The position numbers and the translations under genes are program-made. The notes under the pieces were generated by a model, which had not been told where the DNA came from, made no database searches, and saw nothing but the letters and a program-made list of their open reading frames with translations. Below are positions 3,706 to 18,280 of a stretch of 64,000 bases of DNA, piece after piece. Each line of letters opens with the position of its first letter. Position 1 is the first letter of the stretch. The stretch lies in assembly GCA_003281225.1 (NCBI GenBank), contig QCCP01000010.1:1-64000 (forward strand), written 5' to 3'. The DNA is from Prochlorococcus sp. AG-347-L20 (GTDB taxonomy: Bacteria; Cyanobacteriota; Cyanobacteriia; PCC-6307; Cyanobiaceae).

Positions 3706-4998
3706 TTAAATAAGTAAAGTTATATGATCATTATTTTTGACATATTTAATATTAGGACATATTCGCTTTTTTGAATCAATTATATCGTCTAGAGAAAATC
3801 TCTTCTTTGATTTTTCAGAAGAGGATTTGTAAGAGATCTTATTTTTTAAAAAAATTATTAGCTTTGTTGATTTTATAATATAGAAAATTATAAAAATAAT
3901 ATTTTTTTGAATAAATCTATTTTTATATTTACAATTCAATAAAATCATTAGTTGAGAGTAGTCAAATTGATATATTATGTTGCTCAACCATTTTTCTAAA
4001 CCATTAGAAATTGCGTTTTTTAGTTGCTTTTTGGCAAGTTTTTTAAAAGTCTTATTATCTAAATCATAATTAGATAAATTTTCAATAGGAATTATATATT
4101 TATCCCATATGTTGTAGTTAGCTGTAGAATCACCAAAAACTGGTTTCCCATTAATTATTGAATCCAAAACTGTTTGGCATCCTGTTGCTATGATAATGTG
4201 AGATTTTGAAATTGCTTCTGAGATATCTTCATTAAAATTTTGTAATTTAAACTCAATAGGTGCAATTATTTTTTCAGTATAATATCCTTTATCTTCATAA
4301 GGATGAGGCCTTAATTCGACATTAAATTTGCAAATAGTTTCACTTTCGTTCTTTATTTTATATAAGAAGCTTAATCTTCTTTCTGCCTCAGAAATCATCC
4401 AATTTAAGAATTTATTTGGGTCTGATGTTTCTAATTTATAATTATCTTTATGATCCATCATCTCTTTATAAAGAGTCTGATATTTTGGATTTAAGATATT
4501 GTAATTGGTAGTAATTAAGGCCTTTGGTTTATTAAATATTGGTGGATATTTTTTGAGTTTATTTTTAGCATACTCGTATCTTATAGAACCTGTATTTATA
4601 ATTTTGTTTGATAAAAAGGAGTTCTTAAATCTTTTTTGTAGTATTTTTTGTTGATTTATTCCCCAACACCAGACTTGATTAATAGCAAAGTTGTGAAGAT
4701 AATTAGAGGAATGGAACAGTTGTTCTTTTTTATAAGGTATGCCTTCAGATTCATGTATGACATTGATGTGACCAAGAAAATAAGACCAATTTATTAAAAA
4801 ATGTCTTGGATGAGGCCAAACTATTATTGATTTTTCTTTTTTGTATAAATTTTTAAAGTTTAGTTTTGAAATAGGTAAGATATGTATCTTTAGGTTTGAG
4901 TCCTTTTTTAAGATTATTTCTGAAAAGAAAAGTATTGAATCTAAATCTCGAGTTTTATTTTCTACTAAAAAAATTATTGATTTTATAGTTTTTACCAT
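3706..4998 (-). CDS. Putative surface carbohydrate biosynthesis protein (GT-B-like)
   Basis: The 430-residue protein has no strong catalytic signature, but its middle part reads like the C-terminal half of a GT-B transferase. The stretch IIIATGCQTVLDSIINGKPV (about residues 270-290) resembles the donor-binding segment of capsule-type transferases. It looks like proteins annotated as surface carbohydrate biosynthesis proteins in other glycan loci; that is recalled similarity, not a search result. No membrane segment is clear apart from a hydrophobic stretch near residue 370. It overlaps the aldo/keto reductase gene upstream by 7 bases. The reaction is unknown. Confidence 0.55.
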   Translation of the reverse strand: MVKTIKSIIFLVENKTRDLDSILFFSEIILKKDSNLKIHILPISKLNFKNLYKKEKSIIVWPHPRHFLINWSYFLGHINVIHESEGIPYKKEQLFHSSNYLHNFAINQVWCWGINQQKILQKRFKNSFLSNKIINTGSIRYEYAKNKLKKYPPIFNKPKALITTNYNILNPKYQTLYKEMMDHKDNYKLETSDPNKFLNWMISEAERRLSFLYKIKNESETICKFNVELRPHPYEDKGYYTEKIIAPIEFKLQNFNEDISEAISKSHIIIATGCQTVLDSIINGKPVFGDSTANYNIWDKYIIPIENLSNYDLDNKTFKKLAKKQLKNAISNGLEKWLSNIIYQFDYSQLMILLNCKYKNRFIQKNIIFIIFYIIKSTKLIIFLKNKISYKSSSEKSKKRFSLDDIIDSKKRICPNIKYVKNNDHITLLI

Positions 4999-5891
4999 AA
5001 TTTAATTTTAGAACTTTTAATAAGTTCTAGATTTCTAAAGAGATTACCACACATTCGACTACATTCCAGCCAGTCTAGAACATTATCAATATGTCTACTA
5101 TTAGTAAACCCAATAACCATTTTATTAGGATTACAGTTTTCAACATATTTAAAGGCAGCTTTTTCTATTGAATATTTACTATAGTTTGAAGAAATTAAAT
5201 GATCCATCATAGTAGTAATCGCAGAAATCATATTTGATCTAGGGGGGATAAACCAAGAACTTCTTTTGTCATTTTTTGGGAATTTGAAATTCATATTATT
5301 AATATTGTTATTGACAAATTTGTTTGTTAGAATTCCAGAAGCAAAGATCGATCTTGCTTCAATTTCTGCATTAAATTTTTTACCATCTAGTTCGCTGTAA
5401 AAAATATTGTGATCATATTGAATTATTGGAAAGCGTGATAAAAAATCCTCACTATATTTATTAAATCTTGCAAGGCTTATCCCAATTTTAATTCCTGATA
5501 ATTTAATCTTTAACTTTTCATGAAGGTTTAATAATTCCTCTTCCTCTATTCTTGGATTATGAAAGAGCAATCTGTCAGGAATTCTATTTAATCTTTTTAT
5601 ACTGTTATCCATTTCAGCAAGAATATCGTCATAATCAAAAGATTTAACATCTTTAGAAGAATTACCTATTTTTGTCGTAATTGTTATTTCTTTCTTTGGA
5701 CAATCTTTAATAAAAGTACCTAAAAGTTGTTCGGCATTACCATTTCCATAATTAGGTGCTGTATCAAAACAATAAATTCCTTTTTCTAGGGCGTAATTGA
5801 GTAAAGATAAACCTTTTTCTAATTCATATTTTTGGGTGAAATCTCCTGAAATTGGCCAGGTCCCAAATATTATTTTTTCTTTATTTACCAC
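4992..5891 (-). CDS. Aldo/keto reductase
   Basis: The 299-residue protein carries the family tetrad: Asp43 in FDTAPNYG, Tyr48, Lys74 in TTKIG and His111 in LLFHN. It should therefore be an active NAD(P)H-dependent aldo/keto reductase with a TIM-barrel fold. It starts with GTG at 5889-5891 and overlaps the radical SAM gene by 11 bases. A second, diverged aldo/keto reductase is at 10,323-11,177. In this setting it probably reduces a keto-sugar intermediate during deoxysugar or nonulosonate synthesis. A detoxification role is the main alternative. Confidence 0.85.
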   Translation of the reverse strand: MVNKEKIIFGTWPISGDFTQKYELEKGLSLLNYALEKGIYCFDTAPNYGNGNAEQLLGTFIKDCPKKEITITTKIGNSSKDVKSFDYDDILAEMDNSIKRLNRIPDRLLFHNPRIEEEELLNLHEKLKIKLSGIKIGISLARFNKYSEDFLSRFPIIQYDHNIFYSELDGKKFNAEIEARSIFASGILTNKFVNNNINNMNFKFPKNDKRSSWFIPPRSNMISAITTMMDHLISSNYSKYSIEKAAFKYVENCNPNKMVIGFTNSRHIDNVLDWLECSRMCGNLFRNLELIKSSKIKLW

Positions 5892-7305
5892 GAACTAAAC
5901 TTGTAAAATTCTTTTTGTAATAATATAGCAATTCGTTAGGGAGAAAATCTTCTGAATTATTTTCTAATTGTGCTGTAGAAAGTTGACCATCAACATATCC
6001 TTTAAGATATTTGAATTGTTTTTGATTAAATCCTTGATCGCCAACATTCGTTCCAATATACGGAGAATAAAAAGCAACTGTTATATTATCTGGATTTAAC
6101 TCAGCGTTGAAATTAATTGTCGACTTTATATCATCTTCAGTTTGATTAGGAAAGCCGATAACATTGTAACTTGTACGTTTTATATTTTTTTCTTTTAATA
6201 GCTTAAAAGCTAATTTGATTGCTTGGGTATCACAAAATCTATCTAGGTGATTATTTTTAAAGGAATCTGATGAAATTTCAATACCCATTCCAACACCATC
6301 AACATTTAATTGTTCAAGCAATTCAACAGAACTTTTATTTATAGTTTCGGGTCTTGTCTCAATATATAATTTAATATCTTTATTTTTTTTGAATAAATCC
6401 GAATTAGATAAATTTTTAAGTAATTTTCTATCAGCTGTCAAGAAATTAGTATCTTGAAATCTAAAGAATCTAATACCAAAATCGTAATATAGAGTTTCTA
6501 ATTCAGAAATTAAGTTTTCAAAAGATTTTGATCTTAAATATGAATTTGAATTTTTTATAATCCCAGAGGTGTTTTTTTCTGTAAAACCATAATTTCTTTG
6601 AATTACAGTTTCAACGCAGTAACCACATGAAAAAGGGCAACCTCGGGAAAGCTCAATATCAACAGATTTTAAGACATCTCCGTTATAAGGCCGATAAAAA
6701 ATTTGGTCATCAAAAAGACTATATTCATATGGAGGGATTTCACTTAATTTGATAGGTTCACTTTGTTTAATGATTTCTGGACAACCTTCTTTTTTAGGCC
6801 AATTTTCGATATTATCAGCAATCTTTCTTAAAAATTCCTCTGATTCACCAGCTATAATGTAGTCACACCTTTTAAACTCTTGTGAGGTTCTAATTGGATC
6901 AGCCGTAGGAATTAATCCAGACGTAACTAAAATTGCGTTATGTTTAACTTTGTTTATAAGCTCATATCCGTTTAAAAAATTGATATATTCGCCTTCTCCA
7001 TGAATATGGCTCGAAATAGCAGACCAAAAAATTATTTCAGGATTGAATTTTAAAATATAGTTTTGTAATTCCTCTAAAATGTTTAATGTATTCCATTTTA
7101 TATATTTGTCTATCAATGAAGGCTTATATTGAGAGTTTGAGGTATTAAATTCCAGTTCACATTCAGACCAATCTTTATAGAAAGTAGAGTCAAATAATCT
7201 TACTTCATGTTTACCCTCCTGTAGTAGGGCAGCATGCGATGCTATCCAAATAGGAGTAATGCCTCTTCCCCATTTTGAAGGATTAATTAAAAGGATTCTT
7301 GTCAT
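5881..7305 (-). CDS. Radical SAM protein (B12-binding-domain architecture)
   Basis: The radical SAM cluster motif is plain: SRGCPFSCGYC, with cysteines at about 223, 227 and 230 (CxxxCxxC). The N-terminal 200 residues (ILLINPSKWG, then alternating strands and helices) match the cobalamin-binding-like domain that precedes the radical SAM core in class-B enzymes. The classic DxHxxG histidine motif was not seen, so B12 binding is uncertain. The 474-residue length fits methyltransferase- or ring-contraction-type members. It sits between two glycan genes, overlapping one by 11 bases and the other by 4. It may C-methylate or rearrange a sugar. The substrate is unknown. Confidence 0.8.
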   Translation of the reverse strand: MTRILLINPSKWGRGITPIWIASHAALLQEGKHEVRLFDSTFYKDWSECELEFNTSNSQYKPSLIDKYIKWNTLNILEELQNYILKFNPEIIFWSAISSHIHGEGEYINFLNGYELINKVKHNAILVTSGLIPTADPIRTSQEFKRCDYIIAGESEEFLRKIADNIENWPKKEGCPEIIKQSEPIKLSEIPPYEYSLFDDQIFYRPYNGDVLKSVDIELSRGCPFSCGYCVETVIQRNYGFTEKNTSGIIKNSNSYLRSKSFENLISELETLYYDFGIRFFRFQDTNFLTADRKLLKNLSNSDLFKKNKDIKLYIETRPETINKSSVELLEQLNVDGVGMGIEISSDSFKNNHLDRFCDTQAIKLAFKLLKEKNIKRTSYNVIGFPNQTEDDIKSTINFNAELNPDNITVAFYSPYIGTNVGDQGFNQKQFKYLKGYVDGQLSTAQLENNSEDFLPNELLYYYKKNFTSLVRGK

Positions 7306-8630
7306 AATTTAAATCTTTGACTAATCATAGAGTAAAAATTTAATTTTCTTCCCGATTGTAATTCATCTAAGAGATATTTCTTTGCCTCTTTGATGGGAGA
7401 CAAATAATTTTTGGAGGTATTAAAAAGCTGATCCCTAATAAAATTTGCAAGTTCTTCTTTGTTTTTAGGCTTGAAAGCGGCATTATAGTGTCTAAGACCA
7501 TTGAAACCGCATAAAGCAACCTTTTTATTAACCAAACATGCCTCAATACTTACGGTTGATCCATTTGTTATTAATATATCTGATTCTGAAATAATACTAT
7601 ATGTATTTACGTTGCTATATGCAGGAAAAAATAATTGTTTTCTTTTTTCAAGCAAACTTTCTAGTTGGTTCCAGAGCTCTAAATCAATTTTCGACTTTTG
7701 GCGGGAATTTGGATGTACTCTTAACAAAAAATCAATATTATTTTGATAGCAAAATTCACTTATGAATTTTACTAATTCAATTTGTGTTTTACAGTCTTCA
7801 AACATTACTTCATCTGTGAAGGCACAATATTCATCACTACTTCCAGATAAGTATGAAATTAATTTTTTATTATTTTCTTTCTCGAATACTTCTGATTGAA
7901 CAGATTTATATTGTTTTGTCATTACTGAGTCATAAAGCTCGTCAACTGATATATCATGAATGGTCTCAAGGTAATCATCACATTTATTCGTTTTTAAATA
8001 ATCAAAAGACTGAATTCTAGAAGTAGAAATAATTGTTCTGCCTTTATTCCACATATTTCTTTCTATATAATATAAATCTAAATTATTATTTATAGATAGA
8101 AATGATATTATTTTTTGTCTAAGTGCTCTCCCATTAAAGACATAAAAATTCTTTGGGTTATATTTTTCAATTAGAAAATTAAAGAATGTTTCATAAATAT
8201 ATAATGAATTATTCAGTCTTTTTTCATAATCTTTATAAATAAAATTGTATCTTAGGTCAATATATGATGCCTGAGATTCTTTATTGCAAATAAAGTCTCT
8301 TAGTATTTCTTTTTTTATTTGATTAGAAATATTAGAAGTTAATTTATAAGTTTTTTTATTATTAATACTAAAAAATCTATCTAGGTCTAATATTTTATAA
8401 CCTTTAAAACGTAGAAAAAAAAGAATAAATTGAACTCTGATAAATTTATAAATTTTTTTATGAATTAAATTATTTTTTAATCTATAGCTACCTGATTTAC
8501 AGTAGGGAATAAACCTTATATGTTTAATTATTATTGTATTAGTTGGTTCATTACTTCTAATCCAATCATAAATTATACCTAACGGGTGATTATCAAAGTA
8601 ATCAAATAAAAAACAATTTTTCTCTTTCAT
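7302..8630 (-). CDS. Putative capsule/surface-glycan transferase-like protein
   Basis: The 442-residue protein is not assigned to a precise family. From residue 350 it reads SDILITNGSTVSIEACLVNK, the kind of Ser/Thr- and Glu-bearing nucleotide-binding segment found at the C-terminus of GT-B capsule-type transferases. A similar segment occurs in the protein at 3,706-4,998. The N-terminal 200 residues are rich in Lys, Asn and aromatics with no recognisable motif. It overlaps the genes on both sides by four bases (ATGA), so it is part of a tightly coupled operon. A glycosyl- or glycerophosphotransferase is the best guess. Confidence 0.5.
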   Translation of the reverse strand: MKEKNCFLFDYFDNHPLGIIYDWIRSNEPTNTIIIKHIRFIPYCKSGSYRLKNNLIHKKIYKFIRVQFILFFLRFKGYKILDLDRFFSINNKKTYKLTSNISNQIKKEILRDFICNKESQASYIDLRYNFIYKDYEKRLNNSLYIYETFFNFLIEKYNPKNFYVFNGRALRQKIISFLSINNNLDLYYIERNMWNKGRTIISTSRIQSFDYLKTNKCDDYLETIHDISVDELYDSVMTKQYKSVQSEVFEKENNKKLISYLSGSSDEYCAFTDEVMFEDCKTQIELVKFISEFCYQNNIDFLLRVHPNSRQKSKIDLELWNQLESLLEKRKQLFFPAYSNVNTYSIISESDILITNGSTVSIEACLVNKKVALCGFNGLRHYNAAFKPKNKEELANFIRDQLFNTSKNYLSPIKEAKKYLLDELQSGRKLNFYSMISQRFKL

Positions 8631-9502
8631 AACTTTTTTATAAATTTTTTAACGTTACCCTTAATAATCTTTGTAAGAGAAATAGATTCATAAAGGACAA
8701 ATCTTAAAGTATATCTAAATTGTCCTTTATCACTAAATGGTTCTCTTCTATGTAAACCATTCGTAGCAGAAATAATCGCTTGTCCTTGAAATCCATATTT
8801 TTTAGATTTTTGTTTAGATATTTGAGGAGAGAATGGATTTATTGTATTAATTGCATCAAAGTGTATTTTTGAAGTTTCTAAAACTTTTTTAATATATTTT
8901 TCATTAATTAAATGACTATATGGAATAAATTCATATGATGACCCATGTTTAAATGTATCAGTTAAAAAAATAAAAGCTTTAACAGCAGGAACATATCTGT
9001 CTATATGCATTATTGTATTTGTATCCCCTTCGTCAAAATCAAACGAAGATAATTTTTGTGCTATAAAATAAGGTTTTATAGAGAAGGGACCAATAGATTC
9101 AATTGTGTTTTTTATTTCATAAAAAGTATTTTTTAGTTCTCTATGTTCATTTAAAGATAGATTTTTTTTTAAGTCATTATCATCTAACGAAAATGTAATG
9201 CTTTCCCTGTAAACTCCTTGAGACAATTTAAACTTCTTAACATTTTTTCTTGCCAATATTTGATCGATATATCCTATAAGAGAATTGCAAGTATTACTTT
9301 TAAGCGGCTTAACTTCAGTACATCCATCTGAAATTAAATTATTATTTTTATTTCCATAAAAATAATCTTTAGAAAAAGGTAATAACTTAAATAGGTAGTT
9401 ATTGAAAAAAATATATATCTTATAAAATTTAAAAGGAAATTTTTTAAAAAATTTATTTGGTTGATTAGAGGGATAAATACTTATATTTAAATTTTTAATC
9501 AT
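8627..9502 (-). CDS. 2-oxoglutarate/Fe(II) dioxygenase, phytanoyl-CoA dioxygenase-like
   Basis: The iron triad is visible in 291 residues: His166 and Asp168 in MHIDRY, then distal His251 in NGLHRR. Arg263 in QFRYTLR is well placed to bind 2-oxoglutarate. The stretch GSSYEFIPYSHLI between them is typical of phytanoyl-CoA dioxygenase-like enzymes. These proteins hydroxylate small molecules, including sugars and lipids, using oxygen. It has no signal peptide. It lies in the same operon as a radical SAM protein and an aldo/keto reductase, so it probably modifies a glycan precursor. The actual substrate cannot be inferred. Confidence 0.75.
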   Translation of the reverse strand: MIKNLNISIYPSNQPNKFFKKFPFKFYKIYIFFNNYLFKLLPFSKDYFYGNKNNNLISDGCTEVKPLKSNTCNSLIGYIDQILARKNVKKFKLSQGVYRESITFSLDDNDLKKNLSLNEHRELKNTFYEIKNTIESIGPFSIKPYFIAQKLSSFDFDEGDTNTIMHIDRYVPAVKAFIFLTDTFKHGSSYEFIPYSHLINEKYIKKVLETSKIHFDAINTINPFSPQISKQKSKKYGFQGQAIISATNGLHRREPFSDKGQFRYTLRFVLYESISLTKIIKGNVKKFIKKL

Positions 9503-9549: not shown

Positions 9550-10329
9550 CTACCATGCAGTATACCCCCCGTCAATCACTAATGAAGTGCCTGTTATGTA
9601 AGATGATTTTTCAGAGGTTAAAAACTCATATGCATTTAAAATATCATCTTTACTAAGCATTCTACCAAGAGGTACTTTTTCTAAATATTTTTTTTGAAAT
9701 AATTGATCTTGATGTTTATTAAATAATCCCCCCAAAACAAGACAATTAGCCCTTCCTTTTCTTTGCAAAGCAAGAGTTATTGAAAGATGTTTAGTTAAAC
9801 CAATTATTGCAGATTTAGAGGTTGAATATTCTATAGGTTTTATAAAACCCTTTTTATATATTCTATGGTCAGGACTCCTTACTCCATATATTGAAGAAAA
9901 AAGCAAAATGTGACTTTCCTTATCAAGGTGCTTATAGATACATTTAATAATGAAAAGTTGAGAAGTAATATTGACATTTATTCTTTTTTGAATCTCATCC
10001 AAATTTGCAAATTCTATTCCTTTTGTATAATTATCAGGTATCTTATTTTTATTTTGTGGAACTGAGTCTAAAGCAGAAGCTAAAATAACTGATGATAATT
10101 TTTTTGTTTCTTTTGCAAGAATTTGTTCTAAAGTATCAATATCATTACTATTAGTTAAATCTAATTTATAGTGATTAATATTTTTTTCATTTTTAAATTC
10201 TAAGGGTAATTCATTTATATCTACACTAATTATGGTATTTCCCTTTAATGATTCATGATTTAATAATAGGTTACCAATATTTCCAACTGAACCTAAAATA
10301 AGAATTTTCTTATTCATATTTATTACCAT
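9550..10329 (-). CDS. SDR-family oxidoreductase
   Basis: This is a classical short-chain dehydrogenase of 259 residues. It has a Rossmann glycine motif (GSVGNIG, residues 13-19), a catalytic Ser around 145, Tyr168 and Lys172 in YSTSK, and a C-terminal GTSLVIDGGY that closes the cofactor site. ATG at 10,329 overlaps the upstream gene by 7 bases. An in-frame ATG four codons later (10,317) sits just before the first beta strand and may be the true start. SDRs of this kind often accompany CMP-nonulosonate genes, and a cytidylyltransferase lies two genes upstream. The substrate is inferred to be a sugar. Confidence 0.85.
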   Translation of the reverse strand: MVINMNKKILILGSVGNIGNLLLNHESLKGNTIISVDINELPLEFKNEKNINHYKLDLTNSNDIDTLEQILAKETKKLSSVILASALDSVPQNKNKIPDNYTKGIEFANLDEIQKRINVNITSQLFIIKCIYKHLDKESHILLFSSIYGVRSPDHRIYKKGFIKPIEYSTSKSAIIGLTKHLSITLALQRKGRANCLVLGGLFNKHQDQLFQKKYLEKVPLGRMLSKDDILNAYEFLTSEKSSYITGTSLVIDGGYTAW

Positions 10330-11177
10330 AATCTTGGATCAGAAAGTTTCTCAGAAAAAGAATAAATAGCATTATCAATTTTTTTAAAATAATCTTTTTC
10401 AAATAGTTTTGAGGCGAAATGTAATTGATTTTCTAGCCTTTTAATTGAGCTTGTAGATAAAATAATTCCTTTAAAATTTAAATTATTTGCCTTGGTTATA
10501 GCATATGCAATTAATGATTCTTCTAGTGAATAATTATAGACTTTTCCTACTTCTCCAATTTTTGAAATATGTAATTTGAGAAGATTTGAAATGTTTTTAG
10601 AAATCTTTGTTGGATTAAAATATGAAGATTGGAGAAATATAGATCTTGCAATAAAATTAGTTTGCTTAAATTTTCTTACATTCTCATCAATTTTGGTTGA
10701 TGGATTAATAGGAAGCTGCACAATTTGTGGGATAATTTTTTGTTTCTCTAAATCGAAAAGCTCTTTACTTTTGTATAACGAAACACCTGGGATTAAATTT
10801 TTTTCTTTAATAGTTTCACAAAATTTATTTAAGTTTAGAAAATCTTGATTTGTATTTAGCGGTGAATGGAAATAAATTGCCTTAACTCTTTTCTCCTGTA
10901 TTGATTTTCTAAACTTATCTAAATGTATATCTAAATTGTGTATATTTTTATAACTGATTTTAGTATAGAATTTATTTTTTTTATTCTCATTTAAGTAAGT
11001 AATATCTTCATTAAGCCAAGGATATGATTCAGCACCATCAAATTCTGTAATACCTAATTGACTAATCTGATTAAGATGTATTTTGTATTTACTTAAAGAT
11101 TTTGAAATCCCGTAAGGCCTTGCTCTAGAAGCTAAACCATAAATTATCTCAAGATTATTAACTTTCATTTGAATCAA
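10323..11177 (-). CDS. Aldo/keto reductase, diverged
   Basis: The 284-residue protein keeps the aldo/keto reductase tetrad: Asp47 and Tyr52 in FDGAESY, Lys73 in TKIS and His104 in FHSP. The rest is more diverged than the copy at 4,992-5,891. A TTG codon at 11,177 begins the open frame, but ATG at 11,168 (MKVNNLE) is the likelier start. Either start overlaps the upstream cytidylyltransferase by 10-20 bases. It is probably NAD(P)H-dependent and cytoplasmic. The position directly behind a CMP-sugar synthetase-like gene suggests a role in nonulosonate or acyl-sugar metabolism. Some members of such loci act as dehydratases instead. Confidence 0.75.
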   Translation of the reverse strand: MIQMKVNNLEIIYGLASRARPYGISKSLSKYKIHLNQISQLGITEFDGAESYPWLNEDITYLNENKKNKFYTKISYKNIHNLDIHLDKFRKSIQEKRVKAIYFHSPLNTNQDFLNLNKFCETIKEKNLIPGVSLYKSKELFDLEKQKIIPQIVQLPINPSTKIDENVRKFKQTNFIARSIFLQSSYFNPTKISKNISNLLKLHISKIGEVGKVYNYSLEESLIAYAITKANNLNFKGIILSTSSIKRLENQLHFASKLFEKDYFKKIDNAIYSFSEKLSDPRLW

Positions 11178-11883
11178 TATAATTTAATTCTTCAAAATCA
11201 TTTTTTGTGTCAATATCTGGAGATTTATTTTCTATAAATAATGGACAAACGTGATTCCCAGAAAAGGATCCTTGCTGTAGGGTGCTTCGCCGAACGACTT
11301 CAATTTCTCCTGATTGAAAAAAATAACTTTTTGGTAATAATTGCCTTGGTATATTTGCCAACTCTTTTTGGTTATTATCACAAATTAAGGGATAAACTTG
11401 TTTATTTGGATTTTTTTGCTCCCAAATCCTGTAGGGATGTTCTGATACACTGCGCATGGCTCTAACTGAGCTAATATTATCGTCGGATTTTATTAGGTTT
11501 AGCGATTTTTCAATAAGTCCTTTTTTTCTTAATGGCGATGTTGGTCTTAACCATATTAAAAAATCGATCTCGCAATTATTTATTTTTTCGTATTCTATCC
11601 AAGCGTGAAGTGCTACAGGATAGTCTACAACTAAATCTTCTGCTAATGATGCGGGCCTTATAAAGATTGAATTTACATCTATCCCATTTTCTATAGCTAT
11701 TTCTCTGTATTTATAAGAGTCTGTTGAAATGATAACCTGAGACTTATCAATGGATTTTAAGGCGTAATTATATGAATGCAAAAAAAGTGGCAAGCCTTTA
11801 AATTCGAGTATATTTTTATCTTTTAAACCCTTGCTTCCTGATCTTGCTGGAATAATCGCAATAGTATGTTTTTTTTTATTCAT
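11158..11883 (-). CDS. CMP-nonulosonate (acylneuraminate) cytidylyltransferase-like
   Basis: IIPARSGSKGLKDKN (residues 10-24) is the CTP-binding signature of NeuA/KdsB-type nucleotidyltransferases, followed by QVIISTDSYKY. The RPASLAED segment and WLRPTSPLR are also typical of acylneuraminate cytidylyltransferases. At 241 residues it is a full-length single-domain enzyme. It would transfer CMP from CTP to a nonulosonic acid, making the donor used by sialyl-type transferases. It overlaps the gene upstream by 8 bases. NeuB-like genes at 12,883-17,531 and a second cytidylyltransferase at 17,573 support the pathway. Which acid is activated is not known. Confidence 0.8.
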   Translation of the reverse strand: MNKKKHTIAIIPARSGSKGLKDKNILEFKGLPLFLHSYNYALKSIDKSQVIISTDSYKYREIAIENGIDVNSIFIRPASLAEDLVVDYPVALHAWIEYEKINNCEIDFLIWLRPTSPLRKKGLIEKSLNLIKSDDNISSVRAMRSVSEHPYRIWEQKNPNKQVYPLICDNNQKELANIPRQLLPKSYFFQSGEIEVVRRSTLQQGSFSGNHVCPLFIENKSPDIDTKNDFEELNYIDSNES

Positions 11884-12886
11884 CTTTAATTAATTTAAAT
11901 GAGGAAGAAAATTGACCTTCTTTATTAATAATACCAATCTGAAAAGTTGGATCATCTGCATTATCTACAACTATATCTCCAGGTATAGCTCTATATCCAC
12001 CACTTACATATGATTCTTGCTCATTATCCACTCGCACTGGAATAGCAAATGAATGGCTTATAAACTCTAAATAGTCTACATATGATAATAGTTCAAAACC
12101 GATATTTGCATATTCAAAATTTATCCCCTTTTTTCTAATTATTTCTGTTATTTCTTGATCATAGGGTAAAGCTGATAAAGAAATAATATTTGAGTTTTGA
12201 TCCATTCTTTCTATATTTTTAGATTTTAAAATATTGATGGATGGTGTACATAAAATCAGAAGGTTTTTATCTGAAATTGATTTTTCCAAATTATCAGAAA
12301 TATTAAATATTTTTTTCATATCATTAGAGTTATAAACTTCTTCTACCAAGTTTTTAAGGTTATATAATTTAGAATTATTCTTTGAATAAATAGTGGTATT
12401 AATTTTTAAATCTAAAAGGGCTAATGATAATTTTATCCCTATATTCCCTATCCCAATTAATAATGCATTATTTTCATTTATTAAAGTTTTTGATTTATAA
12501 ATTCTTCTTAAAACTGATTGAATTGTCAGTAAATTTGCAGAAAAATAATAGACATTCAGATTTGGATATTTATAACGTAAATATTCTTGATAAGAATTAA
12601 ATATAATTGAATCTTCTTCCGCAATAAATTTTTTTTTAATCTCAAGATCAAGAAGAGCTACTTTTGTTAGATTAATGCCAATTGAGAGGAAATAATCTAA
12701 AGATTCTTTTGTGGAATTACAAATACCACATATTAAATATTTTTTGCTGATTCTAGGAGGTAATAAGTAGTAATTATTTTGAATATTGTTTGTATTTTGG
12801 ATACTAATAATAATTTTTAAATTTTTATTATTTGCTACTCTTTCAATTAAAGAGAAGTAGTCATTTATTAAATTGAAGTTCATCAA
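11876..12886 (-). CDS. Rossmann-fold protein of unknown function in nonulosonate locus
   Basis: I do not recognise the family. The 336-residue protein has an unassigned N-terminal half. A dinucleotide-binding motif (LLIGIGNIGIKL, about residues 142-153) begins a second half that resembles NAD(P)-binding domains of dehydrogenases such as shikimate dehydrogenase or ornithine cyclodeaminase relatives. The frame can begin at TTG 12,886, but ATG at 12,883 is likelier and shares one base with the stop of the NeuB fusion upstream (TGATG). The last 50 residues (VSGGYRAIPGDIVVDNAD) look like a small beta-rich tail. It is coupled to the nonulosonate genes, so a redox or binding role there is likely. 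Confidence 0.5.
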   Translation of the reverse strand: MMNFNLINDYFSLIERVANNKNLKIIISIQNTNNIQNNYYLLPPRISKKYLICGICNSTKESLDYFLSIGINLTKVALLDLEIKKKFIAEEDSIIFNSYQEYLRYKYPNLNVYYFSANLLTIQSVLRRIYKSKTLINENNALLIGIGNIGIKLSLALLDLKINTTIYSKNNSKLYNLKNLVEEVYNSNDMKKIFNISDNLEKSISDKNLLILCTPSINILKSKNIERMDQNSNIISLSALPYDQEITEIIRKKGINFEYANIGFELLSYVDYLEFISHSFAIPVRVDNEQESYVSGGYRAIPGDIVVDNADDPTFQIGIINKEGQFSSSFKLIKDE

Positions 12887-15255
12887 AAGTGCTCATCCTT
12901 AATAAATTGACCTTTTTTAATATCTTGTGATAGTTGTTGGTTTATTTTTGAATAAATTTCAAATGAGTCCAATCCAAGGCATGGAGCCTTTATTTCAAAA
13001 TCTTCCTTTTTGAAAGTAGAACCAGATTCAATATTTTTAGTTGCATAACAACCTTTCTTTTGGCGTCTTGCTTCTTGACTTTCACATGGAAGAATAGTCG
13101 ATTTTCGAGAACTTAAAATTTTAGGAATATTCTTAAGTAATGAAGTTAATTCTTTTAATGATTGAGGATCAAGTGAATGAATATGATCTGGTCCCTCTAA
13201 TGATCTATCTAAAGTAAAGTGTTTTTCTATAACTTTTGCACCCAGAACTGCTGCCGCAAAGGGAGTTGTAATATCTAAGCTATGATCAGAATATCCAACA
13301 ATATTAGTAAGTTCTTTTAAAGAATTTATTGTCCCTAATGCACTGTCATTTATTGAAAGAGGGTAGGATGATACACAATGCAAGAGGGCTAAATTAGTCT
13401 CTGGTAATTTAATTTTTTCAAATAATTCTACGGATCTTCTTATTTCTTGAATAGTACTCATTCCTGTAGAAGCAATAATTGTTTTAAATAGTTTTGGAGC
13501 TTTACTCCAAATCTCAAAATTTGTTAAGTCCATAGAGCTAATTTTTATACATTCTGGAAATATTTTTGAAGCCTTTATAAGGTTTTCTATATCAAATGCA
13601 CTTACAAACATAGGTATACCAACTTTGTCAGAATATACTTTGAGATGCTTAAGTTCTTCTATGCTAAGCTCAGTTCTCTCAAAAAGTTGAGATAGATTTT
13701 CCCCCTCCCCATCAGCTTGTTCAGAATAAAAAGCATCTCTATCATTTTTTGATGCTCGAACTCTTGATTCGAATAGTTGAAATTTTATAGCATCAGCACC
13801 AGCCTTGAAACTCTCTTCAATTAATTTTTTTGCAAGTTCAAGATTCCCATTATGATTTAAACCAGCCTCGCTAATCAAAACAGGCCTATAATTTTCCCCT
13901 TTATTAATAAATTTGCTCCATTCACTAATAGATTCTTTTTTTATAGAATATGATCTTACTTTTTTTACTAAGAAACTATTATTTTTAATATCCGAAATCA
14001 AATCACTTAAAAAATCTTTGCATTTTCTGAATGTGATCTGCGAATCTCCATAAACAAATTCACCTGAAGATCCTAAAGAAAATAAGTTTGGATAATTATC
14101 TATTACTGTTTTATATTTTAAAAGTTCTTTCTCATAGTTGAATTCCCTAACAGGATATACAAATGGCTCTTTTATTACTGAAATTAAACTAAAAGTTTCA
14201 TTTGGCCAATAATTCAAAATCTTTATTGATTTTTCGATTTTTTTAAACAATGAATTGTCATCGGATTTATGTATTTCATCATTTATTGAAAAGGGAATTT
14301 CAAAAGTTAGGATTGTTCTATTCTTTGATTCAATTGAATTAGGAGAAATAATTGTATGGTTTGTTATTCTTGTGAAAGGAAATTCAGGCTGATCAAAATA
14401 TAACCAAGCAGCATCTTTGGGTAAATTAATAACATTTTTTGTAATTACATTTATTACACATACACCTCTGTATTTTAAATTCGATTCAATTGAAAGTAGT
14501 TCTCCAAGTTTTGTTATTGGAATAGTTGAAATAATAAGATCATCTTCTTTTAACTCAATTTTTTGGTTAAGGGTATTAAAAGACTTTATTTGATTATCTT
14601 TAAAATTAAATTTAATTACTGGTTCTTTAAAATAAAATGTACTATTAACACTTGACCCTTTTAATTCTTCGTAAAATAATCCCGCACCCATTATGTGTGA
14701 AGAGCAAAATTGTCCATCGAAAAATGGTTTGATTTGCTTTCTTATTTGTATTCTCTTAGGCGCCCAATCAGCACGCATCTGAGATGTTGGAATTCCCCAT
14801 AGTTTTTCGGGATATTTTCTGAAAAATGCTTTTTCCAGCTCTTCACCAACTTTTGATATCATATATTCTTTATAGTTATTTGCTTTAGCAGAGGATGAAT
14901 CTTTATTTAGTTGAAATTGATAATTTAAAAATTCTTTATTTTTGCTTAACTCCTCTTCTGAAATAGGGTATGAAATGAATTTATCGTAGTTTTTACCTTT
15001 AACAACATATGAGTAAAAACTTTTTTCTTTAAGATTTTCTTTGCTAATTTCTTTCCAATCATTTGTTATTTCTTGGTCAGGTGAATGGAAAATATGAGGG
15101 CCACAATCTATATGTATCTCATTAGAAATTTTAATTGTTCTTGACATGCCTCCAATGTATTTACTAGCTTCAAAAACTTTGGATTTATAACCAGCTTTTG
15201 ATAAATAGTAAGCGCACGCACAACCTGCAGGTCCTGCTCCAATTATGTAGATCAT
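12883..15255 (-). CDS. Fusion: FAD-dependent (UDP-galactopyranose mutase-like) domain + NeuB-like synthase + SAF domain
   Basis: Two enzymes are joined in 790 residues. Residues 1 to about 440 form an FAD-binding oxidoreductase or mutase: IIGAGPAGCACAYYLSKAG at the N-terminus, then GGMSR, and KLWGIP as in UDP-galactopyranose mutases. Residues 457 to about 715 are an N-acetylneuraminate synthase (NeuB) barrel with SEAGLNHNG, KFQ (Lys491), HCVSSYP, GYSDH and EKHFTLD all intact. Residues 735-790 match the SAF (antifreeze-like) domain that caps NeuB. NeuB condenses phosphoenolpyruvate with a six-carbon sugar. I infer that the flavoprotein acts before or after that step. No frameshift separates the halves; the linker is about 15-20 residues. 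Confidence 0.8.
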   Translation of the reverse strand: MIYIIGAGPAGCACAYYLSKAGYKSKVFEASKYIGGMSRTIKISNEIHIDCGPHIFHSPDQEITNDWKEISKENLKEKSFYSYVVKGKNYDKFISYPISEEELSKNKEFLNYQFQLNKDSSSAKANNYKEYMISKVGEELEKAFFRKYPEKLWGIPTSQMRADWAPKRIQIRKQIKPFFDGQFCSSHIMGAGLFYEELKGSSVNSTFYFKEPVIKFNFKDNQIKSFNTLNQKIELKEDDLIISTIPITKLGELLSIESNLKYRGVCVINVITKNVINLPKDAAWLYFDQPEFPFTRITNHTIISPNSIESKNRTILTFEIPFSINDEIHKSDDNSLFKKIEKSIKILNYWPNETFSLISVIKEPFVYPVREFNYEKELLKYKTVIDNYPNLFSLGSSGEFVYGDSQITFRKCKDFLSDLISDIKNNSFLVKKVRSYSIKKESISEWSKFINKGENYRPVLISEAGLNHNGNLELAKKLIEESFKAGADAIKFQLFESRVRASKNDRDAFYSEQADGEGENLSQLFERTELSIEELKHLKVYSDKVGIPMFVSAFDIENLIKASKIFPECIKISSMDLTNFEIWSKAPKLFKTIIASTGMSTIQEIRRSVELFEKIKLPETNLALLHCVSSYPLSINDSALGTINSLKELTNIVGYSDHSLDITTPFAAAVLGAKVIEKHFTLDRSLEGPDHIHSLDPQSLKELTSLLKNIPKILSSRKSTILPCESQEARRQKKGCYATKNIESGSTFKKEDFEIKAPCLGLDSFEIYSKINQQLSQDIKKGQFIKDEHF

Positions 15256-17531
15256 TATTCCTTCCTTCTTGAAGTTATTAAATCTGATAACTCTTCAAGA
15301 GATGATGCAAAGCCTCTGCCTTGATTAAGATGACCTTGCCAAGTTTCCACTATCCATGTGTACGTATTATTTGATAGTAAGGGTAATATTTCCGAAAAAT
15401 CAATAGATCCATTACCTATATTTAAACCTTCTTCAGCATTATTATGTGCATCTGATACGTGTAAATGTGATACAAGATTTTTGGTTTCATTAATAAATTT
15501 ATCAAATGAATATTTTGAAAAATTACACCAAAGATATGAATGTGAAACATCTAAACAAAATTTAGTTTGAAAAATATCCGTTACTGTTCTTAAGCTTTTA
15601 ACCGATGTGCAAAGATTATGAAATGACCTGCCCCCTTGATGCCATGGGAAGGGGGGCATGGTTTGGGGTAATATATCGATCCCATCGCAAATCCCAATTT
15701 CTTTTACTGATTTTTCTAGTTCTAATAACATTTGATTAACTTTTGATTGATCTGCAAATTCATATGAAGTAAATCCACCGATGTTTACTACTAATTTTAA
15801 TCTCTCAGAATGTGGAAAAAATTCATGTAATTTATAACAGTGTTCAATTAATTCATTGAATCTTCTGATAGATTCTTTTCTGATTTCTTCATTTACAGAA
15901 CAAAAATCCAAGATAAAGCCATCTGAATATTGTTCAATAGCATGAACAACCAGTTTAGATTCAGATTTTGCAGGAATATATTCAGATGGATTGAGAAGAA
16001 TATCTTTATCACTCATATGAAACTCAAAAAGTGGTGGATTGAAATATTTTGAGAGAGTATCGTAATCTCTATATCTAACTGGAATACCCCAATTTTTATT
16101 TGGAAAATTGTAATTTGGAACTGATTTCTTATTAATAAATATCTCTTTTAGGCCGATGTCTTCAAATTTAATTTGATGGAATTTTTTTGTATTCTTTAAT
16201 AACTCCTTACCTATTATTTTATCGATCTCACTGTAAGGTATTCCATCCCCAGGACATCGAAGACTAAAATCTTGAATTTTTAATTGATGCCCTTTTTTAA
16301 AATTCGAATTATAAATCAATGATTTTGCTAAAACGTTTCTGTTTGCCAGTTCACCTTGCGATGGAGTTCTAGGCTTATCAGTTCCATAAGATTTGGATAG
16401 TTGGCGACAAATTTTCACAAAATTGGTTAATTCATCAAAATTTAATGATGCTTTATGATCAGTGCCATCATAATCTCGTGATTTTGTAACGTGAACTTCT
16501 ATTATTCTAGCTCCACAACCAATACTCCCATAACAATAGTTTTCAGAACCATCATGAGATGAATATCCAATTAAATTTTCAGTGATTTTCTCTAATCTCC
16601 TCATATAGCTTAAGTTCAAGTCTTCAGGAGGTGCTGGATAAGTGGAGTTGCAATGTAAAAAAACATAGTTTGAATTATATTTTGAGATTAGTTCATATGC
16701 TTTTAAAATTTCATGTTCATAGCTCATGCCAGTAGAAATAAGTATTGGTAGGCCTGTCTTTGCGACTTTTTTAATAAGCGGGATATTCGTTAAATCACAT
16801 GAAGCGATTTTAAGACCGTCAATGTTTAAACTAAGTGCTCTGTTTAAAGCATCAATAGTGAAGGGAGTGACAATGACATCCATATTTAAACTTTGTGCAT
16901 ATGCGACTAAATTTTTTTCAATATTTTCATCTAAATTAATCCTTTTAAGTTCGTCATTGATATATTGAGATGCTAAATCAAATTCGTTTTCACCTCTTTC
17001 ATCTAATAAATCGTTACCTCGGAATTGAAATTTAATGGCATCAAAGCCTGCTTTGGATGATTCTTCAATAAGTTCTCTAGCAATTTTCTCATTACCACAA
17101 TGATTTACTCCTACTTCTGCCACTAAATAAATTTCGTGATTGTCTTCATTAATATTTTTTGACCTAATTTTGAAATTTTTTAAACCTATTAAACCAATAC
17201 TTTTTACAATATTTAAATTATTTACCATTGGCACAATCCTGACTTTATCACCTAGTATTTTTTGAATAGTTTCTTTTGGAGAGTCTTCATTTACAAAAAC
17301 AGGAAATTTATTCATTAAATCTGATGCAATTAAATTAGATGAAAAACTTTTACTTTTTACATGCCTTAATATATCTCCGTTACTAATAATTCCTTTTAAA
17401 CTACCTTGATTGCTAATGACAACTAATGGAATTCCAGATTGATCTGAAATTTTTTGAATAATTGTATCCAAATTATCATCTATTTGACAGGTAAAATTTT
17501 CAATTGATTTTGTAATTATTAACCTTGACAT
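15255..17531 (-). CDS. Fusion: CBS pair + NeuB-like synthase + SAF + xylose-isomerase-like TIM barrel
   Basis: This 758-residue protein joins at least three modules. Residues 1-120 read as a tandem CBS domain (GIPLVVISNQGSLKGIIS, then DLMNKFPVFVNED), which usually senses adenosyl nucleotides. Residues 136-470 are a NeuB synthase plus SAF cap: AEVGVNHCGN, KFQF with Lys167, HCNSTYP and GYSSH are present. Residues 473-758 resemble a sugar-phosphate isomerase/epimerase of the xylose-isomerase-like barrel, with CLDVSHSYLW, LHVSDAH and VETWQGH as likely metal and substrate residues. The stop shares one base with the next start (TAATG). I infer that isomerisation and condensation happen on one polypeptide, perhaps with nucleotide control. 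Confidence 0.8.
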   Translation of the reverse strand: MSRLIITKSIENFTCQIDDNLDTIIQKISDQSGIPLVVISNQGSLKGIISNGDILRHVKSKSFSSNLIASDLMNKFPVFVNEDSPKETIQKILGDKVRIVPMVNNLNIVKSIGLIGLKNFKIRSKNINEDNHEIYLVAEVGVNHCGNEKIARELIEESSKAGFDAIKFQFRGNDLLDERGENEFDLASQYINDELKRINLDENIEKNLVAYAQSLNMDVIVTPFTIDALNRALSLNIDGLKIASCDLTNIPLIKKVAKTGLPILISTGMSYEHEILKAYELISKYNSNYVFLHCNSTYPAPPEDLNLSYMRRLEKITENLIGYSSHDGSENYCYGSIGCGARIIEVHVTKSRDYDGTDHKASLNFDELTNFVKICRQLSKSYGTDKPRTPSQGELANRNVLAKSLIYNSNFKKGHQLKIQDFSLRCPGDGIPYSEIDKIIGKELLKNTKKFHQIKFEDIGLKEIFINKKSVPNYNFPNKNWGIPVRYRDYDTLSKYFNPPLFEFHMSDKDILLNPSEYIPAKSESKLVVHAIEQYSDGFILDFCSVNEEIRKESIRRFNELIEHCYKLHEFFPHSERLKLVVNIGGFTSYEFADQSKVNQMLLELEKSVKEIGICDGIDILPQTMPPFPWHQGGRSFHNLCTSVKSLRTVTDIFQTKFCLDVSHSYLWCNFSKYSFDKFINETKNLVSHLHVSDAHNNAEEGLNIGNGSIDFSEILPLLSNNTYTWIVETWQGHLNQGRGFASSLEELSDLITSRRKE

Positions 17532-17572
17532 CTATTCAAAATATCAAGTGGATTATATCATAATATTAAAAG

Positions 17573-18280
17573 TTATTTAAAGTATTTCCTAGCTGTATTT
17601 AAATCTTCGATCTCATCAATATCTAAACTTTCAATTTGATTGATAATAAGAGGAGTTTTATAATCCATAAATCTATTTAATTTTTTTAAAAACCCCTTTA
17701 TAGGGAAAATATAAAAACCACCAGTTTCTTGGAAATAATCTTGCATCATTTGTGTATTATTTCTATTATCTGGATCATATGAAATTGGTTCAAAATTCCC
17801 CCCCTTTTTAACCCATGTAAACTGTTTGTATTTATAAGCTGAGAATATCGTGGTGTTATATTTGCTAGAACTAAGAAATAGATCTAACCCCTTTTGAATA
17901 GATTGAATTTCCAATAATGGAGAAGTTACCTGCATCATAAGAACATATCCATTACTTTCTTTAAAGTGTTTAAAATTATCGACATCTAATAATTCTTTTA
18001 GAGTGCTTTCTGTTGAAGAATTATTTTGTGAAACTTGGATGCTTCTTTTATGAATGACAATATTTTTAGAGAGAAATTCACTTAAATTTAATTCTTTATT
18101 AGAAAAATCTGTTGATAAAACAATTTGAGTATCATCGTTTTTTAAATTGATTGCTTTTTTAATACAGATTTCAATTAATGTTGAGGAATGAATTGTTTTT
18201 AAATTTTTATTCTTTATTCTACTTGAACCTTTTCTTGCAGGAATAAAAATAATATTTCTTGGTCTTCTATTCATTACCAT
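17573..18280 (-). CDS. Second CMP-nonulosonate cytidylyltransferase-like protein
   Basis: The 235-residue protein begins with a NeuA-type CTP-binding loop (FIPARKGSSRIKNKN, about residues 12-26) and continues with IVLSTDFSN. Further on, MQVTSPLL matches the RPTSPL-like segment of the family. It is a paralog of the enzyme at 11,158-11,883 but clearly diverged, so the two may activate different acids. It lies 41 bases upstream of the CBS-NeuB fusion start and 6 bases downstream of the sugar-phosphate transferase gene. This arrangement pairs one NeuA-like with each NeuB-like protein. KDO cytidylyltransferase is a less likely alternative. Confidence 0.75.
   Translation of the reverse strand: MVMNRRPRNIIFIPARKGSSRIKNKNLKTIHSSTLIEICIKKAINLKNDDTQIVLSTDFSNKELNLSEFLSKNIVIHKRSIQVSQNNSSTESTLKELLDVDNFKHFKESNGYVLMMQVTSPLLEIQSIQKGLDLFLSSSKYNTTIFSAYKYKQFTWVKKGGNFEPISYDPDNRNNTQMMQDYFQETGGFYIFPIKGFLKKLNRFMDYKTPLIINQIESLDIDEIEDLNTARKYFK

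Follow-up and report, generated by a model that had tools for sequence, protein, structure and literature searches.

In the capsule loci KL1 and KL2 of Serratia marcescens, a NeuB with a COG1082 isomerase/epimerase domain is encoded beside neuA (PMC9000132; this and the other papers are cited from excerpts). The capsule contains 2-keto-3-deoxynononic acid (KDN) and N-acetylneuraminic acid (Neu5Ac) at a ratio of ~20:1, no KDN is present when the capsule region is missing, and deletion of neuB lowers colorimetrically determined sialic acid 4-fold and leads to loss of the capsule (PMC9000132). In the NeuB of Neisseria, Arg314 positions the N-acetyl group of N-acetylmannosamine (ManNAc) (PMC6795526, citing Joseph 2013). 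Here, a window of 64,000 nucleotides of Prochlorococcus sp. AG-347-L20 (positions 1-64000 of contig QCCP01000010.1, our contig C10; host genome 1.65 Mb, 99.6% complete) was analyzed, which harbors two NeuB fusion genes in a run of seven genes. This locus is composed of two adjacent, separately occurring cassettes, named unit A and unit B, and is not one module. Arg314 is lost from both NeuBs, and both units probably direct the synthesis of ulosonic acids of the KDN type that are activated with cytidine monophosphate (CMP).

The seven genes lie on the minus strand and run from 18280 to 9550. Unit A consists of a CMP-acid cytidylyltransferase (CMP-transferase) of the NeuA/PseF type (17573..18280, 235 aa; CTP_transf_3, PF02348, E 3.5e-15; PseF model E 1.5e-22, under cut-off) and a 758 aa fusion of a CBS domain, NeuB, a SAF domain and a xylose-isomerase-like TIM barrel (15255..17531). 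It is followed by unit B, which is made up of a 790 aa fusion of a flavin adenine dinucleotide (FAD) domain resembling UDP-galactopyranose mutase (UGM), NeuB and SAF (12883..15255), a 336 aa Rossmann protein that probably binds NAD(P), as judged by alignments (11876..12886), a CMP-transferase of a second type (11158..11883, 241 aa; PF02348, E 8.3e-16), an aldo/keto reductase (AKR) with a TTG start (10323..11177, 284 aa; PF00248, E 1.3e-8) and a short-chain dehydrogenase (SDR; 9550..10329, 259 aa; PF13561, E 2.9e-18). The largest gap, of 41 bases, separates the first two genes; the other junctions overlap, by 1, 4 and 8 bases up to the fifth gene and by 20 and 7 bases at the AKR and SDR genes. 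Domains were assigned by comparison with Pfam, NCBIfam and the PDB, the SAF parts being taken from PDB alignments. In the AKR the tetrad residues and in the SDR the YxxxK sequence, which we take to be the motifs of these families, appear to be kept in the former and are kept in the latter.

A preliminary description of the window had reported the first five open reading frames as a tightly coupled nonulosonate module with two NeuB fusions and two NeuA-type enzymes, followed by an AKR and an SDR. The coordinates agree with our analysis, in which all five lie on the minus strand, and hidden Markov model searches of the individual domains recovered the same enzymes (NeuB, E 5e-65 and 4e-57). Beyond that description, they revealed the UGM-like FAD domain before one NeuB and, in the other fusion, the CBS domain before and the PF01261 TIM barrel after NeuB. 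The single module had to be given up, since units A and B were found apart in other genomes and the two CMP-transferases belong to two types. The proposal of a new small system stands for unit B, which looks to be a new, conserved flavin-NeuB cassette, and falls for unit A, because a NeuB-isomerase architecture has been published for S. marcescens (PMC9000132); unit A is a new CBS-bearing member of this published architecture.

The separate occurrence of the units was seen in both directions. In genome G215 the FAD-NeuB, Rossmann, CMP-transferase, AKR and SDR genes stand in identical order (42, 27, 52, 31 and 50% identity; 51.5% for the CMP-transferase to one decimal), with no CBS-NeuB-TIM gene and no second CMP-transferase within the 20-kb stretch examined. 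Such a shared gene order makes the gene set of unit B more than a chance assembly. Unit A, comprising the CMP-transferase and CBS-NeuB-TIM genes, lacks unit B beside it in G070 and on plasmid pT173e of Ensifer canadensis. By alignment, one CMP-transferase of the window resembles that of G215 and the other those of G070 and Ensifer; the unit A enzyme shares 34% identity with L034:9430-10140 and 30% with L157:8333-9004. This pairing of type and unit is not strict, because G118 and G007 have, beside their NeuB-TIM genes, enzymes closer to the type of unit B. In the searched samples, the NeuB-TIM fusion was far commoner than the FAD-NeuB fusion.

Both window NeuBs matched PF03102 clearly (219.7 and 193.9 bits, cut-off 22.1). 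In an alignment with Neisseria NeuB, the metal- and phosphoenolpyruvate (PEP)-site residues E25, K53, Q55, K129, H215, E234, H236 and D247 were kept in both, which speaks against dead active sites. The scores stayed under the cut-offs of the equivalogs for Neu5Ac synthase (TIGR03569; 269.8 and 244.6 bits, cut-off 399.65) and for the synthase of pseudaminic acid (Pse) (TIGR03586; 209.2 and 171.4 bits, cut-off 340.25). At the position of Arg314 a Cys is found in unit A and an Ala in unit B. Position 314 was never Arg or Lys in any of the 38 fusions examined: it was Ala, Pro, Ala and Ser in the four FAD fusions, Cys, Ser, Ser, Ser, Pro, Ser and Ser in the seven TIM fusions of the genus, Phe and Met in two cupin fusions, and Ser in all 24 further cyanobacterial TIM fusions and in the Ensifer fusion. 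Standalone NeuBs, drawn from most, not all, of the just over 100 places listed for the genus sample, comprised 67 rows including a copy on host contig C12; 60 of these have a residue at position 314, which was Arg or Lys in 58. The exceptions were the host C12 NeuB (Gln) and a NeuB of G086 (Ile). Repeats (L129, L130), a Pacearchaeota NeuB with Gln (L046) and a partial copy (L050) were left out of this count. The short NeuBs L122, L123, L124, L125, L127, L128 and L152 (232-328 aa) have no residue aligned at position 314 and may lack the SAF domain.

A second specificity position was compared as well. At site 132, which determines C2 specificity, Neu and legionaminic acid (Leg) synthases have Gly and Pse synthases Phe (PMC7371886). 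Position 133 of our alignment was taken as its equivalent; Gly or Phe was found here in 49 of 66 standalone rows and in 0 of 38 fusions, with Met in all four FAD fusions and Cys, Ala, Val or Pro in the others. In a tree of 78 NeuB domains, with an arbitrary root and several long branches and without the 24 further TIM fusions and the Ensifer row, the FAD fusions formed one clade (support 100/97) and the TIM fusions another (100/99). The two were joined with weaker support (90/94), the cupin fusions stood separately, and the rows of Neisseria NeuB and Campylobacter PseI fell outside the FAD/TIM grouping. A recent tandem duplication of the window NeuBs is unlikely in view of their identity of 32% and their separate clades. 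The host C12 and G086 NeuBs have long branches and were placed, with weak support, close to the cupin fusions. The C12 gene (L040, C12:39388-59387; NeuB at 12098-13156) lies beside a gene of the mandelate-racemase/enolase superfamily, and a 2-hydroxyacid dehydrogenase gene, a CMP-transferase-like gene and a PfkB/cytidylyltransferase fusion are found nearby.

The host genome offers little for the established precursor routes. No NeuC (PF02350) was detected over the cut-off of 30.6 in the window, as the preliminary description had stated, nor in the whole 99.6%-complete genome, the best match being a single fragment of 19.2 bits. One strong DegT aminotransferase was found (364 bits), and five more matches at 20-37 bits, over the low cut-off of 19.8, are probably other pyridoxal-phosphate enzymes. 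The strong DegT is of a widespread type, present in 17 of 36 genomes as an open frame of 415-418 aa (E 7e-110 to 5e-108). As no NeuC exceeds the cut-off and the one strong DegT is of a widespread type, it appears unlikely that the host uses a Neu, Pse or Leg route, the latter two being judged by the aminotransferase. Since, in addition, the catalytic residues of both NeuBs are kept, an unusual acid, which the earlier account had held to be possible, appears likely.

In a first set of NeuBs, proximity of NeuC followed position 314. PF02350 was present within 5 kb of 18 of the 28 NeuBs with Arg or Lys (R/K NeuBs) and of none of the 14 others (Fisher p 4e-5, like the other p values too small because the genomes are related), and within 20 kb of 21/28 and 2/14, respectively; as many genomes are drafts, some NeuC genes may go unseen beyond the end of a contig. 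Some R/K NeuBs without a nearby NeuC grouped with Campylobacter PseI in the tree, which is expected, because the Pse route needs no NeuC. DegT proximity did not separate the classes well (within 5 kb 13/28 against 2/14, p 0.049; within 10 kb 13/28 against 5/14, p 0.74). This count excludes the widespread type and most of the weak or partial matches; judged by contig and position, no excluded strong match is within 20 kb of a counted NeuB.

A NeuB with a TIM domain was encoded in 7 of 151 genomes of the genus sample, host included. Across the phylum, the TIM profile matched 40 of 386 genomes, in 25 of which (host included) the match lies in an open frame of at least 617 aa. Apart from that of G202, the other phylum fusions (23/24) align from residue 1-6 of the host protein and thus cover the CBS part, and a CMP-transferase gene is located upstream at 7 of the 12 CBS-bearing phylum loci whose upstream side was examined. 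Viral contigs contained no relative of the CBS-NeuB-TIM protein. PF01261, which we take to name the same kind of domain as COG1082, is represented here by a barrel with 30 positions invariant in seven sequences, including D-x-S-H, H-x-H and E-x-W-Q-G-H. In G007, a gene for a DHDPS-family aldolase (L036:827-1804) lies between the CMP-transferase and NeuB-TIM genes.

A different isomerase is joined to the Arg-less NeuBs of G105 and G041, whose C-terminal cupin matched D-lyxose isomerase (PF07385, E 2e-9 and 5e-7). D-lyxose isomerases act also on mannose and fructose. That a second kind of isomerase is joined to an Arg-less NeuB fits a fusion partner that supplies a neutral aldose, and suggests that NeuC has been replaced more than once by an isomerase-NeuB fusion. 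The NeuB-cupin fusions (L044:9446-10993 and L045:8694-10322) have Asp for Glu25 and no Arg314; next after the fusion gene of G105 comes one for a HAD phosphatase.

Unit B is rarer. The genus was searched with the FAD-NeuB protein and the 386 phylum genomes with a profile of the Rossmann family; the fusion was found in 3 of 266 genus genomes and in G542, which belongs to another genus of the same family. Strong matches to the Rossmann profile were confined to the host and G542, and weak ones, mostly to the nucleotide-binding core, occurred in 173 other phylum genomes. The Rossmann gene directly adjoins FAD-NeuB in all four fusion loci, the unbiased count being 3/3 because G542 was found through the Rossmann gene. 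The locus of G542 also carries genes for an SDR, a CMP-transferase and a class III aminotransferase, and that of G010 a CMP-transferase gene and, on the other strand, a DegT aminotransferase gene. A further Rossmann relative was seen in G102 at a contig end, beside nucleotide-sugar genes. The Rossmann protein had no Pfam match at E 0.001 and one weak NCBIfam match, to dipicolinate synthase DpsA (E 2e-5, far under the cut-off); two of its relatives weakly matched Shikimate_DH (PF01488). SGG and VD...P positions are invariant in five relatives, PDB matches of the profile were mostly short and confined to the nucleotide-binding part, and a single-sequence structure prediction was unusable (mean confidence, pLDDT, 33.9).

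The FAD domain scored above the cut-offs of PF13450, PF01593 and PF03275 (the last with 29.4 against 26.3 bits), and reached 52.6 bits with the UGM equivalog TIGR00031, whose cut-off is 303.75. Positions aligned with H63, W160, R174, R280, Y314, Y349 and D351 of Klebsiella pneumoniae UGM, which we take to be active-site residues, are kept in all four FAD fusions; two standalone relatives, in G004 and G145, differ at H63 and D351. Two of seven UGM comparison rows in this alignment (L059, L061) were evidently other proteins and were disregarded. A scan of genome contigs with FAD-NeuB yielded one relative, a standalone Pacearchaeota NeuB. Plasmid records matching FAD-NeuB numbered 111, and none of the 20 matches listed covered >80% of its length; phage scans gave 3 and 4 records with partial matches. 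The Rossmann protein had no match among the plasmids and no family relative in viral contigs. In the literature, searched at the level of titles and abstract openings, no description of a flavin-NeuB fusion was found. Elsewhere in the window, a 291 aa protein without Pfam match (8627-9502) has an HxD...H pattern that presumably recalls phytanoyl-CoA-type dioxygenases. Close to unit B, at 4992-7305, there is a second AKR in overlap with a radical SAM protein, which has a B12-binding match under the cut-off.

What follows on acceptor, product and the roles of the accessory enzymes is inferred from sequence; we consider it probable, with moderate confidence, that both units make CMP-activated ulosonic acids of the KDN type, i.e. 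non-acetamido acids, presumably for the cell surface. Each NeuB would condense PEP with an aldose without a 2-N-acetyl group, and the CMP-transferase of each cassette would activate the resulting acid. The TIM barrel fused to the NeuB of unit A would most likely isomerize or epimerize a sugar to give a mannose-like aldose and so stand in for NeuC. The components of unit B, namely its UGM-like flavin domain, Rossmann protein, AKR and SDR, may prepare the acceptor or tailor the acid.

Several points weigh against this reading. The Pse and Leg routes were judged by their aminotransferase only, PseG/H and LegB not being searched for. In a second set of NeuBs, PF02350 was found within 5 kb of 12/30 R/K NeuBs and 0/8 others (p 0.04), but within 10 kb of 13/30 and 2/8 (p 0.44), and this set is a weak test because 7 of the 8 non-R/K rows have no residue at position 314. 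Aminotransferase genes adjoin some Arg-less NeuBs, so some products may carry nitrogen: a DegT gene lies 1.7 kb from the FAD-NeuB gene of G010 and 0.1 kb from the TIM-NeuB gene of G117, and a class III aminotransferase gene is found near such a NeuB in G542 and G146. In G146 (L039:8405-13073) NeuB-TIM is followed by the class III aminotransferase and an SDR-like gene, and the product of some TIM-NeuBs may thus carry an amino group. The host TIM domain has no close match to any characterized enzyme; the only solved chain at E <=0.01 is the uncharacterized MJ1311, the best NCBIfam match is an L-ribulose-5-phosphate 3-epimerase model (E 0.006), and two of seven TIM domains matched the phosphodiesterase CbiR (best E 7e-5). 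The third host NeuB, with Gln at position 314, has no fused isomerase. Ser184, which is typical of Pse synthases (PMC7371886), is present in 38/38 fusions, though also in 40/66 standalone rows, and the fusion counts are not independent, since the fusions are related by descent. The parallel to Serratia is one of published architecture, and Serratia makes a little Neu5Ac too.

Ser184, that Neu5Ac of Serratia (PMC9000132), the best NeuB-domain models (NeuB_NnaB and PseI, though under cut-off) and the resemblance of the SDR to the flagellin modification protein PtmA (NF050062, E 2e-22, under cut-off) would all suit a pair of NeuBs whose products are standard acids of the Neu5Ac, Leg or Pse type, formed from acetamido sugars that other genes of the genome provide. 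We consider this quite unlikely in a genome with no NeuC over cut-off and with one strong DegT of a widespread type, given that Arg314 is absent from both window NeuBs and that these lie in a clade apart from Neisseria NeuB and Campylobacter PseI. Even less is to be said for one pathway with two NeuB steps that makes one or two acids in sequence: a seven-gene run on one strand with no gap above 41 bases would favor it, but unit B lacks an adjacent unit A in G215, unit A lacks an adjacent unit B in G070 and Ensifer, and NeuB-TIM is much more widespread than FAD-NeuB, which makes this explanation highly improbable. For unit A, the TIM barrel could act as a hydrolase that frees the aldose for NeuB from a nucleotide or phosphate ester. 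NeuC is itself a hydrolyzing enzyme, and the CbiR matches point the same way; as the Pfam family of the domain is that of xylose-isomerase-like barrels and two other Arg-less NeuBs are fused to a D-lyxose isomerase cupin, we regard a hydrolase as unlikely.

For the FAD domain of unit B, two further roles were considered. It could be a furanose mutase that acts either on the acid or on a different sugar of the same glycan, the fusion to NeuB serving joint expression only. The seven UGM-aligned residues and the PF03275 score speak for this, whereas the maintenance of the NeuB fusion in four genomes of two genera and the wide shortfall from the UGM equivalog cut-off speak against it, so that we see it as doubtful but worth keeping in view. 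Alternatively, and in our estimate very unlikely, unit B could be a flavin-dependent replacement of NeuC, in which the UGM-like domain opens a nucleotide hexose and feeds the aldehyde to the fused Arg-less NeuB. In such a scheme N5 of the flavin would attack C1 of the nucleotide hexose and the ring would open as a flavin iminium, which is a known UGM intermediate. Hydrolysis would pass the open-chain aldehyde to NeuB, which needs that form, and the Rossmann protein, AKR and SDR would set stereochemistry or oxidation state. If true, unit B would represent a new way of entering ulosonic acid synthesis.

Under the KDN-type reading of both units, retention or loss of Arg314 would be a one-residue mark that may separate NeuBs of the acetamido type from those of a probably non-acetamido type. 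On marine cyanobacteria, acids of the KDN type could matter for phage adsorption and for grazing.

Compared with known systems, the window has a PtmA-like SDR, NeuB and CMP-transferase in common with the Leg/Ptm flagellin locus of Campylobacter. It differs from that locus in its redox partners, and the host genome yielded neither a LegG of the NeuC type over cut-off nor a dedicated LegC of the DegT type. With the NeuB of Neisseria meningitidis (1XUU family) the window NeuBs share the NeuB and SAF domains and the metal and PEP residues, whereas Arg314 is lost, extra domains are fused and the genome has no NeuC over cut-off. By alignment, the FAD domain of unit B shares what we take to be the active-site residues of UGM, and differs from this enzyme in being fused to NeuB and in scoring far under the equivalog cut-off. 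The neuA-neuB pair of Serratia, compared by its published description, resembles unit A in that NeuB is joined to an isomerase/epimerase-type domain and a CMP-transferase gene is adjacent; the excerpts of that description mention no CBS domain and no unit B. By architecture, the Serratia NeuB appears to be the nearest characterized relative of unit A that we met, and its predominantly KDN-containing capsule would agree with our reading of Arg314.

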